This document shows, in pieces, positions 26,431-47,963 of a DNA stretch of 64,000 nucleotides; positions within the stretch are counted from its first letter, which is position 1, and every line of letters begins with the position of its first letter. The DNA is taken from positions 69,836,552 to 69,900,551 of the forward strand of contig NC_092524.1 of the NCBI RefSeq assembly GCF_037038585.1, given 5' to 3'. The notes under the pieces are model-generated. The model was not told the DNA's origin, made no database searches, and saw only the letters and a program-made list of their open reading frames with translations. The position numbers and the translations under genes were made by a program. Source of the stretch: Patagioenas fasciata. Lineage: Eukaryota; Chordata; Aves; Columbiformes; Columbidae.

Positions 26431-26753
26431 CCTATTCTATTCTATTCTATTCTATTCTATTCTATTCTATTCTATTCTATTCTATTCTATTCTATTCTAT
26501 TCTATTCTATTCTATTCTATTCTATTCTATTCTACTCTACTCTACTCTACTCTACTCTACTCTACTCTACTCTACTCTACTCTACTCTATTCATTCCATT
26601 CCACTCTACCCTACCCTACCCTACCCTACCCTACCCTACCCTACCCTACCCTACCCTACCCTACCCTACCCTACCCTACCCTACCCTACCCTACTCTACT
26701 CTACTCTACTCTACCCTCCCCTCCCCTACCCTATCCTACTCTACTCGACTCTA
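26431..26753. repeat. Pentanucleotide satellite in homogeneous blocks
   Basis: About twenty copies of CTATT (26432-26531) change abruptly to about twelve of CTACT (to about 26588). A short irregular stretch (26587-26606) follows, then about seventeen of CTACC (26606-26690), a few CTACT, and a degenerate C-rich end. Each step is a T-to-C change at one unit position. No stop appears on the + strand across it (Tyr-Ser/Pro-Ile/Thr-Leu repeats), an artefact of the repeat. The unit resembles the ATTCT words in CR1 tails, but no CR1 body precedes it. Confidence 0.95.
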
Positions 26754-38588: not shown

Positions 38589-38661
38589 ATGGATGTAGCG
38601 ATCGGGCTGCTGGGGCTGCTGACGGTTCTGCTGGAGGGCAGCTCCGGGCAAGGGGTATACG
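38589..38661 (+). CDS. MDGA2: MDGA2 first coding exon (signal peptide), partial gene
   Basis: This exon encodes the start of MDGA2 (MAM domain-containing glycosylphosphatidylinositol anchor protein 2). In known vertebrates the full protein has six Ig domains, a fibronectin-like domain, a MAM domain and a GPI anchor; it sits on the neuronal surface and binds neuroligins, limiting neurexin-neuroligin synapse formation. The 24 complete codons begin MDVAIGLL and contain LLTVLLEG and then SGQGVY, which match my memory of the human MDGA2 N-terminus (LLTVLLEG-ISGQGVYA) much better than MDGA1, which shares only GQGVYA. The exon ends with the first base of a Gly/Ala-type codon (phase 1) and is followed by GTGAGT at 38662, so a next exon starting CN would restore the conserved Ala after GVY. 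Residues 5-15 are the hydrophobic core of a signal peptide, with likely cleavage near Gly20. The ATG has a strong context (A at -3, G at +4). The Ig-domain exons lie beyond the window. MDGA1 or another Ig-family gene is the less likely alternative. Confidence 0.87.
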
Positions 38662-40680
38662 GTGAGTCCGGGGCGCGGCGTGACCTTGTCGCGACTGTCG
38701 CCGGGGCGGGAGGGGGGGGTGTCCCCCCGCGCGGTCGCGGGGGCGGCGGGCCCGCGCTGCGCGCCGCGGGAGCCGGCGGAGCCAGAGCGGAGGCAGCGCC
38801 GTTGCCATGAGACGCTGACATTGCGCGGCGAAAACCGGGGGCGGGGGGTATCGGGGGCTCCGGCCGGTCCCGGGCCGGGCTGGCCGCTGCCGCGGAGCGG
38901 ATGGGCACCACCGCGATGGGGCTTCTCGGTGCCCGCGGAGCTCCCGCACTTGTTAGCAGCGGCGCTGCCGCCCGCCCGCGGCCGCGGAGCGAGGGGTGGG
39001 GGGCGAACCGCAAACTTCCCGGCGCTCCGCCGGGGGCGCGCAGTCCCCGCGGCAGAGCGCGCAGGGGAGCGCCCCGCGGCCCCGCTGCCCCCGGCAGTGA
39101 CTTGCAAATCGCCGCCGCGGAGCGGGACGCGGGAGAGTCCGCGGAGCGGGGCGGCCGGGGCCGAGCCGGCGGCATCACCTGCCCCGCTCTCAGCACCCGG
39201 GTCCTGAACAGCTGCCTGGGGACCGGCGCTGCGGCCGCGGGTCTTGTTGCTTCTCCCTCAGCCCCCGCCAAGTTGGCCCCGTTTACCGCGAAGCCTGGAC
39301 CCGAGCAGCGGGGAGAACCGGGTGCCCCGCCGGACCGCGGTGCTGCGCGGTGGGGACACCACCCGGTGCGTTGACCCCAGCCCCGGCGCTGCCCCAGCCT
39401 CTGGGGTGCCCCGGCCCCGGTGATGCCCCGTTCCCGGTGATGCTCCAGCCGCGGTCCGGGGTTATGTAAGCGGCACGGCGGGGCTCGGCTCGGCGGCGGT
39501 GCGGAGCTGCTGGGAGCGCTGCCTCTGATACTCGATGTTAAGGCGACTTCATGAATTTACCAGTAAATGCTTCGTTTGACATCCGCTCCTTCGAAGCCCC
39601 TGTTTCAGCACTAAAATCTTTGCTCCCCACCAGCAAGGCAGCCTCAGAGATGCTCTCGCCGCCCCCACCCTCCCGCTTTTTAAAATTTTGCGAAATTTCA
39701 GTGTAATAGAAAATATCTGGGGGGTTCTGCTCCCAGCAGCTGGATTGCTAACGTGCAGATCTTGGCACTGGCAGCACCGGGGCTCCTCGCCTTCCCCGAC
39801 ACACAGGCACATATTGTTGGATGCGTTGGAATAGCAACCGCTGTCGTGAATAGAAGAGGGCTTGTTCAGGCAGAGTGTGTTTTGTGGGGGCCTGCAGGAA
39901 AGGGAGCTCTTGCCCTGGACTGAACATCAGCATCTATGCACGGGTGATGTCACACGCAGATTTGTAGTAAGACTTTTGTTTGGCAATGCTGCATTTTCAT
40001 CCTGTCAGATGTAACACCTTATTTAGGTTAAGGATGATTGGTGAAGGGCTGGTGAGAGGGGAGGGGGGGGAAGTGGTGCGAAGTCAGGCAGATGTGGCTG
40101 CACTATATTTGAAACCTGCTTCGTGTGAATTTGTGTTTCTTCATTGACTCCTGAAGGCTGGTTTGAGAAAGCAGACAGTGCTCAGCCAAAAAAGAAAGCC
40201 AAGCCCAGGGTATGTCACCTGGCAGCCTGGAGCACCAGGGCCATTTTGAGAAAGGAGGTTTTGAAGGTAGCACCCATTAGCAAAAGCAAGCAGGCTGGGA
40301 GAGGGACCCCGCTCAGTCCTTGTTGCTTTGGAAAAATAGGTTTGTGGGATTTGAACAACTTTTTTGTCCCTTATTGAAGATTTCAAGATCCTCGCAGCTC
40401 AGCTTCCAGGAGTGGAGCAGTTAGGAGGGTGTCTTGCTGACTTAACCCATTTGTTCCCTGCTTTTGTGCCACCGATCTGAAATACTGGTGTCTCTTCCGA
40501 GCATCCTCCTTGTGCCCTGCTGCTCTCTCCGGTCCTGCATGGAGAACCTGCCACCTTGCAGCTCGCTCAGACCTGTCGTTAGGTGCTGTCTGCCGCTTCG
40601 GCTTCTCTCCAGCTCCTCCCGTTGCGGTTGTGTCCCTGGGACAGAGTCTCACTGGTGATGTGCACTGCCCGAGCTCCACC

Positions 40681-40895
40681 TGCCTGCTCCCGGCACTGCC
40701 TGCCTGCACTTCTGCCTGCACTCCTTCCTGCACACCTGCCTGCACTCCTGCCTGCACTCCTGCCTGCACTCCTGCCTGCTCCTGGCACTGCCTGCCTGCA
40801 TTCCTGCCTGCATTCCTGCCTGCACTCCTGCCTGCACTGCTGCCTGCTCCTGGCACTGCCTGCCTGCACTCCTGCCTGCACTCCTGCCTGCACCC
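40681..40895. repeat. 12-bp minisatellite (CTGCCTGCACTC)n with higher-order units
   Basis: The basic unit CTGCCTGCACTC repeats about fourteen times with point variants. A longer marker, CTCCTGGCACTGCCTGCCTGC, recurs near 40686 (as CTCCCGG), 40779 and 40847, so blocks were duplicated as larger units of about 70-90 bp. It lies 2 kb inside MDGA2 intron 1. It reads without stops in several frames on both strands (Cys-Leu-His-Ser and Gly-Val-Gln-Ala repeats), so open frames over it are not evidence of coding. Confidence 0.9.
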
Positions 40896-42011
40896 CGCGG
40901 CTGCTCGACACTGCAGAAGGTGCAAAGAAGCATTCAGCACGTCCCCCCAGAACAGCAGCGCTTGAGAGCTGCTTTGCTGCCTTTAAATGCAAAATAAATG
41001 ATCCACATTTGCGTATTCTTAGTTCATGCAAAAAAGCAAATTAATGTCCCGTGATGTCTGGCTGTGCATCTCGCCGTTAACTCGCGCCTGTTGCTTCTGA
41101 ATAGTAAAGCTATGATTAAAAGGTGGTACAGCCGAACCTGCGGGGGAACCGAGGCGCTGGCATGGGGAACAGTTTGCCAAGGTTGGTGATGGAGCCAGAG
41201 CAGGCGCAGGTCTGTGCGGTGCCCACCTTCTGCTGCTTCAGGGGACGGGGAGAGAGCAGAGCTACTAAAATCCCTGGCAAGATGTACGATTCCCCAGCTC
41301 CGCTTTGCGCAGCTTGTTTTCTTGGCTAAAATAATCTCAAACTCCAAGTGCAGCATGCACTTTCCCTCCCCTTTAAATTCTGCGTGACTCGCATGGTTAA
41401 TAAAGCAGAAGACGCAAGTATCCAGCTCATGATGGTTAGCTTTCACGTTACAAGAGAAGAAGTGGCTAAATGAGGAGGTCAACAGATGAGTTGCAGCTCA
41501 TCCAAATGTGGGACTTTTATGATAATGGGGAGTGATTTCCCCACCCATTCCCCCGGCTGGGGGGCTCGCTGGGGACCCGGGGTTTAGGTGCATGTTTCCA
41601 AAACACGCGAGGCACCACAATAAAGGGGAGCACCCATGGCACCTGCTGGGTGAGGTGTCTGCACCCATGGGGTGCTGGGCATGGGGGTGCAGCCCTCCGG
41701 CAACCGAAGCAGCCCCCTCTGCAGCACGGTTTCCCCGTGGCCACAGGAGCGTGTTTTACCCACTCTTATGCAGAGCTTTTAGTTACTTTCCCATGAATTC
41801 AGCTGGAAATAAGCAAGGCAGCTACAAAGGATGAGTTTCTCGTGTGTGTAAACGCCAGGTCTGTGTGGCAGGATGCAAACCCCCCACCTTCCCCCCCCTC
41901 CTTCAGTACGGAAGGAGCAGGCACATCTCCCTCTCTCTCTGTTTGAGGTTAACAGCTTCTTTTGTTTGGCCCCAGAGCCTCTGGCCAGGGCCATTAGGAG
42001 AAGGGGCTGAG

Positions 42012-42088
42012 CACCTGTGACCAGTGTGGGGATGTTTGGAGGCTTCAGGGCACCCACAGCCGGTGTGGGGGTGCAGAGAAGCTTCTGG
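42012..42088. repeat. Diverged tandem duplication of about 39 bp
   Basis: Two copies read CACC..AC..GTGTGGGG.TG...AGGCTTCAGG-like and align over their whole length with several changes. It lies about 150 bp before the hairpin array. Confidence 0.5.
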
Positions 42089-42234
42089 AATGGCCACAGT
42101 CAGGTCTGATCAGCCATTAAAAACGGGACTCTCGTCGAGACTCCGGGTCTGTGGGAGCACGAGCGAGATGGTGCGGCCGAGAGCCCCCGGGATGGAGACC
42201 CCGCTGCCTTGGGCCGCGGCTGTGAGTGAAACTG

Positions 42235-42584
42235 CTGGCAGGATTGCCAGTGTATTTATCCTTTCCGTGCACATTGCACGTGTAACTTCCCGTGCTTAAT
42301 ACAAGCACGTATAAATTTATTTCCTCGCACAATCGCGAGTGTATTTTTCTCCCGTGCTTCCACATAAGCACGTGTACTTCCGTGCACATTTGCACGCGTA
42401 CCTTAAATTATTTCCTCGCACAATCGCGAGTGTGTTTTCATCCCGTGCTTCCACATAAGCACGTGTAGTATTCCGTGCACATTTGCACGTGTAAGTAAAT
42501 TAACCCTCGCAGGATTGCGAGTGTATTATAAACTTATCCTCGCGGAATCGCGAGCGTACACTTTCCGTACTCACTATGAGCACG
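42235..42584. repeat. Tandem hairpin array with about 30 bp spacing
   Basis: Twelve inverted repeats lie in series at 42235-42250, 42266-42280, 42291-42309, 42324-42339, 42353-42372, 42381-42396, 42415-42430, 42444-42463, 42474-42489, 42506-42521, 42539-42554 and 42566-42584. Stems are 6-7 bp with loops of 3-6 bases. Three types occur: A (CTCGCA..YGCGAG and variants), B (CGTGCTT..AAGCACG) and C (CGTGCA..TGCACG). A-B-C repeats as a unit of about 91 bp: 42324-42414 closely matches 42415-42505. Most stems are followed by TGTA, with TATA, CGTA or TGTG variants, and lie in AT-rich spacers. Stems vary in a compensatory manner (see findings). I do not recognise a known repeat family. In a + strand MDGA2 pre-mRNA the array would be intronic. 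The hairpins are too short for pre-miRNA and lack tRNA A/B boxes. Confidence 0.85.
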
Positions 42585-42681
42585 TGTATCTCTTTAAGAA
42601 TAACCCCACACCGTGTTCATGCAGTGTGGGCTCCTCCGGGACTCAGGGACGGCTCCGGCATCGTTTTGGTGAAGCCACGTG
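42277..42681. promoter_or_regulatory. Cluster of six CACGTG E-boxes
   Basis: CACGTG occurs at 42277-42282, 42369-42374, 42460-42465, 42486-42491, 42581-42586 and 42676-42681. The first five arise where a ...GCACG stem meets the following TGTA of the hairpin units. CACGTG is the core site of USF, MYC/MAX, TFE and CLOCK/BMAL1 bHLH factors. The density is far above chance, but it could be a by-product of repeat expansion. Confidence 0.5.
42605..42630. repeat. Outlying hairpin CCCACAC...GTGTGGG
   Basis: A 7-bp perfect stem with a 12-base loop lies 20 bases after the hairpin array. Its stem is unlike types A-C, so it may be a diverged unit or unrelated. A further 10-bp palindrome GTGCATGCAC at 42679-42688 resembles a type C stem with no loop. 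Confidence 0.5.
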
Positions 42682-43579
42682 CATGCACTCTGTGGACCTC
42701 CTGTTGTATGAGTTGCTGCCTCTTCATAATTTCCCTCAACTGATATCCGAACCTGTATTTAAGTCATTTTTGGAGTGCTAAAACCCTGTTTCTCACCGGT
42801 TTAGTAAGAGTTGTTTTGGACCCTGTTGTCCCTTAAACGAACCTCGGGGTGCCTCCGGGACAGTCCGCCATAGGAAAATTGTGTGTGTGCAACATTCATC
42901 CCTCTGTGCACCCCCACGCTGTGTTTTAAACCATCTCCTGTAAGCAAAAGTGCTGAGCATCTCACATGCAGATGCAGATAACATCAGGATGGCCGTGAAT
43001 GCCTCAGGAAAGCAAGTGATCACAAATGTAAGGAGTATCGCTGTGCTCAGCCGGAGTCTCCCTGGAGCTCTGCAAATTGTTGGGAGAAGCAGCTGCAGCT
43101 GAGGGAACGACCCGGCTTTTTGTTGCTGGTGCAAAGTAATGCGGGAGTATAGGTATTTATTGTATTAAACGTCAGAGAGATTGTCCTTGTTCCTTGTGCC
43201 AAGCATCAGATGTTATCCAACACATGAATTTGTATCCCAGTTGTATAAAGAAGCAGGTTTGGCAATGGGGAACCCAAACCCCTTGCACCCCAGATGGCAG
43301 CTGGGTTGGGGTCTGGTGAAGCACTTTGTGTCCCCAGGGAGGCGGAGCAGGTCACGCAGTGTCGGGAAGGATCTTCCAGCACCTCTGGCTGCCTCTTTAT
43401 AATGATGATGATGATGTTGTGGTACGCTCGGCTCCTCGGAGGGGTTAATGACAGCCGGCTTTGCAGCGAGAGTGTCTGCGTGCCGCTGCTGACCCGGCCT
43501 TTCCCTAATGCTCCCCCTGCTTGAACAAGTGGATTGGAAGGATGAAAGAAGGGAAGAAGGGGAAAAAAACCAACACTAA

Positions 43580-47774: not shown

Positions 47775-47963
47775 CCTCCATCAGACCATCCGCCTCCATC
47801 AGACCATCCACCTCCATCAGACCATCCACCTCCATCAGACCATCCACCTCCATCAGACCATCCACCTCCATCAAACCATCCGCCTCCATCAGACCATCCA
47901 CCTCCATCAGACCATCCGCCTCCATCAGACCATCCGCCTCCATCAGACCATCCACCTCCATCA
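47775..47963. repeat. 18-bp minisatellite (CCTCCATCAGACCATCCA)n, about 10.5 copies
   Basis: Units are nearly identical. The main variant is A or G at the final base (ACC or GCC at the junction); one unit has AAACC instead of AGACC. Since 18 is a multiple of three, all frames repeat; on the minus strand it gives a Gly-Leu-Met-Glu-Val/Ala-Asp hexapeptide repeat inside a 211-codon open frame (47374-48009) that I regard as spurious. High identity suggests recent expansion. Confidence 0.92.

Follow-up and report, generated by a model that had tools for sequence, protein, structure and literature searches.

The twelve-hairpin array in the window (the 64,000-nt stretch of DNA analyzed here) is part of a long terminal repeat (LTR) and not a feature of MDGA2. 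We identify the element that carries it, with high confidence, as the solo LTR of a class III (ERVL-like) retrovirus without room for env. The identification draws on the ends of the LTR, a target duplication, a dispersed family of copies, and proviruses with protease, reverse transcriptase (RT), RNase H and integrase. The origin of the array, a solo LTR, is ordinary; its internal structure is unusual.

The array occupies 42235..42588 of the forward strand, with stems at 42235-42584 and the tail of the last unit running to 42588. Its units take the form YC-stem-loop-stem-TGTA, or nearly so, with loops of 3 to 6 bases. Our scan re-found the twelve short inverted repeats, 25-34 bp apart, that the original prediction had described (successive spacings of 31, 25, 33, 29, 28, 34, 29, 30, 32, 33 and 27 bp). 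Applied to mononucleotide-shuffled versions of the 460-bp stretch (n = 20), the same scan averaged 0.35 units; on 100 random 460-bp stretches taken from approximately the first 41 kb of the window, it averaged 0.18. The array is real and lies far beyond chance. Across its twelve units, the outer five stem pairs were Watson-Crick in 59 of 60 cells, with a single A-C mismatch in the twelfth unit (CGTACTCA/TGAGCACG). When 3′ arms were exchanged at random between units, the mean was 46.7 such cells (P = 0.0002), a P value obtained from units that are not independent, because units 4-6 and 7-9 fall in a 91-bp higher-order repeat of three hairpins, present in 2.4 copies at 42312..42527 on the same strand. 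The individual stems named by the original prediction were found in their places, two-sided differences included, as were the A/C intermediate pairs at 42324 and 42415. The observed/expected CpG ratio was 1.54 in the array, compared with 0.53 and 0.64 for the 1 kb on either side of the LTR. Since differing units keep their pairing, one of two processes has acted, as had been proposed: hairpins were selected for, or palindromic units were copied. Rfam, at the gathering score, gave no matches in the window or in 50 kb of contig C25. The window also contains ordinary tandem repeats at 26432-26753 ((CTACT)n), 40679-40893 (12/68-bp) and 47775-47963 (an 18-bp minisatellite).

The LTR itself spans 41864..42862 on the forward strand (999 bp, TGTGGC...GGGACA), with limits set by homology and by the target duplication. 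Homology to a copy on C25 covers 42021-42862, and other copies mostly start at 41864 and end at 42862. The LTR is flanked by GTCTG at 41859..41863 and GTCCG at 42863..42867, which match at four of five positions. Of 18 loci checked for duplications, two belong to the C23-C25 arrays and the other 16 are LTR copies located through the hairpin pattern. Perfect 5-bp duplications were seen by eye at seven (L027, L029, L037, L040, L041, L044 and L045) and 4/5 duplications at two (L021 and L024), the remainder being unresolved or without duplication. A search of the window for a further copy of this LTR found none. From this anatomy it follows that the element was inserted and stands as a solo LTR, which we infer to be the product of recombination between a pair of LTRs. 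At ~38589-38661, the window has a signal-peptide-like first exon with GTGAGT after it. The LTR was inserted in sense orientation in what is probably intron 1 of MDGA2, the gene named by the original prediction.

Within the LTR, a TATA-like box at 42116..42123 (ATTAAAAA here, TATAAAAA in the C25 copy), which would mark the start of transcription, and a poly(A)-signal position at 42803..42808 (AGTAAG here, AATAAA in relatives) both lie on the forward strand; both motifs are degenerate in the window copy and better formed in its relatives. Because the array is placed between them, it probably lies in the R region of the LTR, whose putative boundaries are set by these motifs. Directly before the array, at 42222..42227 on the same strand, stands a splice-donor-like GTGAGT, recognized from its sequence only. 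Soon after the pol stop of a provirus, there is a pyrimidine-rich ...TTTTCTTGCAG|G (L074, 141-160), and the array might lie near the beginning of an intron in the RNA of the element.

Copies of this LTR are dispersed through the genome, numbering over a thousand. Exact matches to the hairpin pattern CTCGCANNATYGCGAGTGTA amounted to 2587 genome-wide (1233 and 1354 by strand), and those to the LTR 3′ end GGGGTGCCTCCGTGACA to 1248 (617 and 631 by strand), while backward-read controls of both patterns gave none. A genome search with 42200-42620, in which 40 of 1951 candidates were scored, returned the window and 39 copies on C23, C24 and C25, at 88% identity. The array is accounted for by a repeat family, recognized here from copies within this genome, and belongs to that dispersed family; the original suggestion that MDGA2 has a structured intronic RNA or a binding array of its own is accordingly not supported.

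The two LTRs most similar to that of the window (92% and 91%) lie on the same contig within ~2.1 Mb (C5:67.7-70.4 Mb), as do four more high-scoring LTRs (81-85%); this clustering suggests local duplication or a local burst. Among the 100 listed of 106 matches to the flanks of first units, 26 were on C1 (216 Mb), one of them unrelated, and 22 on C47 (70 Mb), 18 of the latter at 45.7-61.7 Mb; as a guess, this part of C47 could be an ERV-rich region of a sex chromosome. Contigs C23, C24 and C25 (L009-L016) carry tandem copies of a host segment ~38.7 kb long. One truncated LTR was present per unit looked at in 50 kb of C25, two neighboring units were 95.6-99.1% alike, piecewise, and at least 39 copies of the truncated LTR occur on these three contigs, with closest steps of ~37-39 kb among the matches listed. 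The regular 37-39 kb spacing had suggested ribosomal DNA, a reading we rejected, as rRNA genes were not found in 50 kb of C25.

Proviruses of the family are marked by same-strand LTR pairs 5114, 5750, 5750 and 6073 bp apart among the 100 matches listed for each pattern. Pieces between one such pair matched the Pfam families RVP, RVT_1, RNase H and rve. The first piece of the same provirus, of 281 residues, had no Pfam match; this ORF upstream of the protease is presumably gag. In a neighboring provirus, the interval from the pol stop to the 3′ LTR measures 472 bp, which leaves no room for env. For the RT piece (200 residues), the best matches among solved structures were 7kse and 7ksf (Peptidase A9/RT/RNase H), followed by 7o0h, 7o0g and 7o24 (Pr125Pol), all ahead of murine RT chains; we take these five to be foamy-virus entries. 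A target duplication of 5 bp is typical of ERVL. The element fits class III (ERVL-like), an assignment based on a single RT search plus the target duplication. Class III ERVs likewise have TG...CA ends, a 5-bp duplication, the order protease-RT-RNase H-integrase without room for env, and an RT nearest to foamy virus among solved structures. A primer-site-like TGGCGCAGCGAGCAGGG, which presumably fits the 3′ end of tRNA-Ser, starts 4 nt past the LTR end (L073, 140-156); two 3′-end patterns for a corresponding tRNA-Ser gene had no match in this genome.

We then compared the units of 38 copies, comprising the window copy, 20 slices retrieved for their resemblance to the LTR start, 16 located through the hairpin pattern and one from the C23-C25 arrays; the 16 pattern-found copies are biased toward an intact A unit, since they were chosen by that pattern. 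Similarity to nine unit templates, with at most six mismatches, identified 421 units, from 1 to 16 per copy and some 11 on average, although these counts may be short in seven slices in which the last unit lies within 40 bases of the slice end. Successive units were 25-34 bp apart in 378 of 383 cases. In the 5′ flank, which was not part of the search template, position -2 was a pyrimidine in 419 of the 421 units and position -1 a C in 390. The TGTA tail, which was part of it, had T1 in 362 units, G2 in 380, T3 in 411 and A4 in 410. Polarity is fixed, nearly all units reading pyrimidine-C, stem, TGTA.

Stems of the different unit types differ at pairs 2, 3, 4, 6 and 7 with pairing kept, and the differences run from Watson-Crick to Watson-Crick pairs, some of them by transversion (T-A/G-C, C-G/G-C). 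Variation of this kind was also found within types. At pair 7 of B1, T-A occurred in 32 units and C-G in 22 (54 Watson-Crick versus 29.7 expected), and at pair 3 of A4, C-G had become G-C in three copies (L053, L054 and that of the window); C11:7146644 (CTCGCA/TGCCAG) and L058 (CTCGCG/TGCCAG) show only the 3′ half of this change to G-C. Because such covariation is common to separate insertions, it arose while the element was active. Double Watson-Crick changes over the 421 units numbered 46, compared with 27.3 in shuffles of the 3′ arms, 0 of 1000 of which reached 46. Leaving out B1 pair 7 reduced them to 24 versus 17.2 (reached in 46 of 1000), and leaving out A4 pair 3 as well to 21 versus 16.3 (107 of 1000). 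The residual excess is weak and can be explained by shared descent.

During the active life of the element, the number of hairpins changed as units were duplicated, and stems changed without loss of pairing. After insertion, the stems, B1 pair 7 and A4 pair 3 aside, decay close to independently and about neutrally. One-sided changes over the 421 units of the 38 copies were as often of the GU type (145) as of the AC type (145); those outside CpG leaned to GU (49 versus 31, P = 0.057). Divergence at non-CpG sites was 4.5% in stems and 4.8% in loops, so stems were no better kept. Selecting first units by their flanks only gave 106 places (backward-read controls, 0 and 1); of 100 listed, 98 were used after two unrelated ones were dropped. 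In these 98 copies, 26 CpG losses were of the GU type and 29 of the AC type (P = 0.79), and CpG had changed in both arms in 3 copies versus 8 expected, that is, in fewer (Fisher P = 0.013). Last units, selected at 388 places (controls, 11 and 12), contributed 94 of 100 listed, six being unrelated; their 658 cells contained 70 mismatches, part of them a shared C-C variant at the outermost pair, 21 GU pairs and 4 double Watson-Crick changes, and one-sided changes at the outer CpGs comprised 16 GU and 25 AC. Decay of the stems without clear compensation, which the original prediction had named, for orthologs, as an outcome that would refute it, was thus seen in paralogous insertions. Moreover, the compensation that did occur arose in the active element and therefore carries no information on MDGA2.

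What the array did in the element is a separate question, for which we tentatively propose a role at the RNA level, a reading held weakly and somewhat short of even chances. If the array is in R, the element's RNA would contain it twice, in the leader and again at the 3′ end. A string of hairpins, each followed by UGUA, would compact a long R region and might offer single-stranded UGUA tetramers at regular intervals, possibly for binding by CFIm, a cleavage factor that promotes use of the poly(A) site. The polar flanks and the place in R favor an RNA structure, as do the two-sided changes within unit types, with their one-sided stages, and the folding of the sense strand. The lack of an overall wobble preference, the similar divergence of stems and loops at non-CpG sites and the equal or stronger folding of the antisense strand do not; folding z was -6.6 for sense RNA, -7.4 for antisense RNA and -9.1 for DNA. 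In the minimum-energy RNA fold, several local hairpins were broken for pairing between units. The link from UGUA to CFIm is a guess. Passages of PMC10476966 report that two UGUA motifs of a single RNA can both be bound by a NUDT21 dimer if 7 nt or more separate them, and that UGUA is enriched 40-100 bp upstream of the cleavage site; the array ends ~215 bp before the poly(A)-signal position, and this distance, set against the zone given in those passages, argues against CFIm. The most far-reaching form of an RNA role, in which an active avian class III element evolved a modular RNA ruler in R, that is, a selected hairpin-UGUA array of variable number that folds R and recruits 3′-processing or export factors, with its length tuning expression, seems to us improbable. 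Two other readings of the motifs were tried and rejected. An E-box fails since GCACG+TG gives CACGTG in B/C units and not in A units. PUF sites have the form UGUANAUA, which the octamers after TGTA, by eye, do not fit.

Template switching offers a different account of how pairing was kept: in the course of reverse transcription or of replication, a polymerase would switch strand inside a hairpin and copy one arm from the other, so that palindromes correct themselves, and unit duplication would spread the products. The process creates and maintains hairpins according to PMC8794818, whose hairpins resemble ours in their perfect stems and two-sided changes; here, they form a regular array in a mobile element. 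Both the Watson-Crick to Watson-Crick differences between unit types, with their transversions, and the range of 1 to 16 units among the 38 copies, seven of whose slices are perhaps short, speak for it. However, wholesale correction would remove the A-C pair at position 6, yet 67 of 75 A2 units retain it; the C-G to G-C change is seen half-way, on one side only, in some copies; and the motif flanks, phase and CpG content of the array would need a separate cause. We regard template switching as possible but rather doubtful.

Less favored still, and in our view unlikely, is an array of DNA-binding sites in the transcriptional control region of the LTR, each unit being a dyad-symmetric site for a host or element protein. 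Palindromes this rich in CpG, the missing wobble preference and the strong folding of the DNA would suit such sites, but the A units differ from B/C at pairs 2 and 3 and loops vary in length, which a single dimeric protein would hardly tolerate, and the flanks of the unit are polar (YC...TGTA). Host selection on the array, whether as a functional structured RNA or as a regulatory element serving MDGA2, can be practically dismissed: its sense orientation in the intron, if the gene call is right, is outweighed by its membership in an LTR family of over a thousand copies, by the decay of copies without clear compensation and by the degenerate state of the TATA-like box and the poly(A)-signal position in the window.

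In contrast to class III solo LTRs, the present ~1-kb LTR carries some 11 hairpins per copy in a probable R. Passages of PMC3601003 describe R as long in gammaretroviruses, class III ERVs/spumaviruses and lentiviruses, and note that residual conservation in R can be linked to stem-loops. As far as passages of PMC3601003 and PMC2664473 go, the stem-loops of R regions are single or few, whereas here they form a tandem array with a 91-bp higher-order repeat. Minisatellites inside LTRs are likewise built of tandem units; the present units, by contrast, are palindromes that vary among themselves and yet stay paired. In the listed titles and opening lines of abstracts of open-access PMC papers on ERV-LTR hairpins or repeats or on bird ERVs, hairpin arrays in bird LTRs were not found, and a search of open-access PMC for MDGA2 with ERV and bird found no paper; this silence is a weak sign of novelty.

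Covarying stems are usually taken as proof of RNA function, whereas here the covariation, though real, came with a mobile element. Anyone scanning introns for covariation is thereby warned that what a mobile element brings in is uninformative on the host gene. At the same time, the family provides more than 1000 datable multi-hairpin insertions, which could test whether template switching or selection is the keeper of hairpins.
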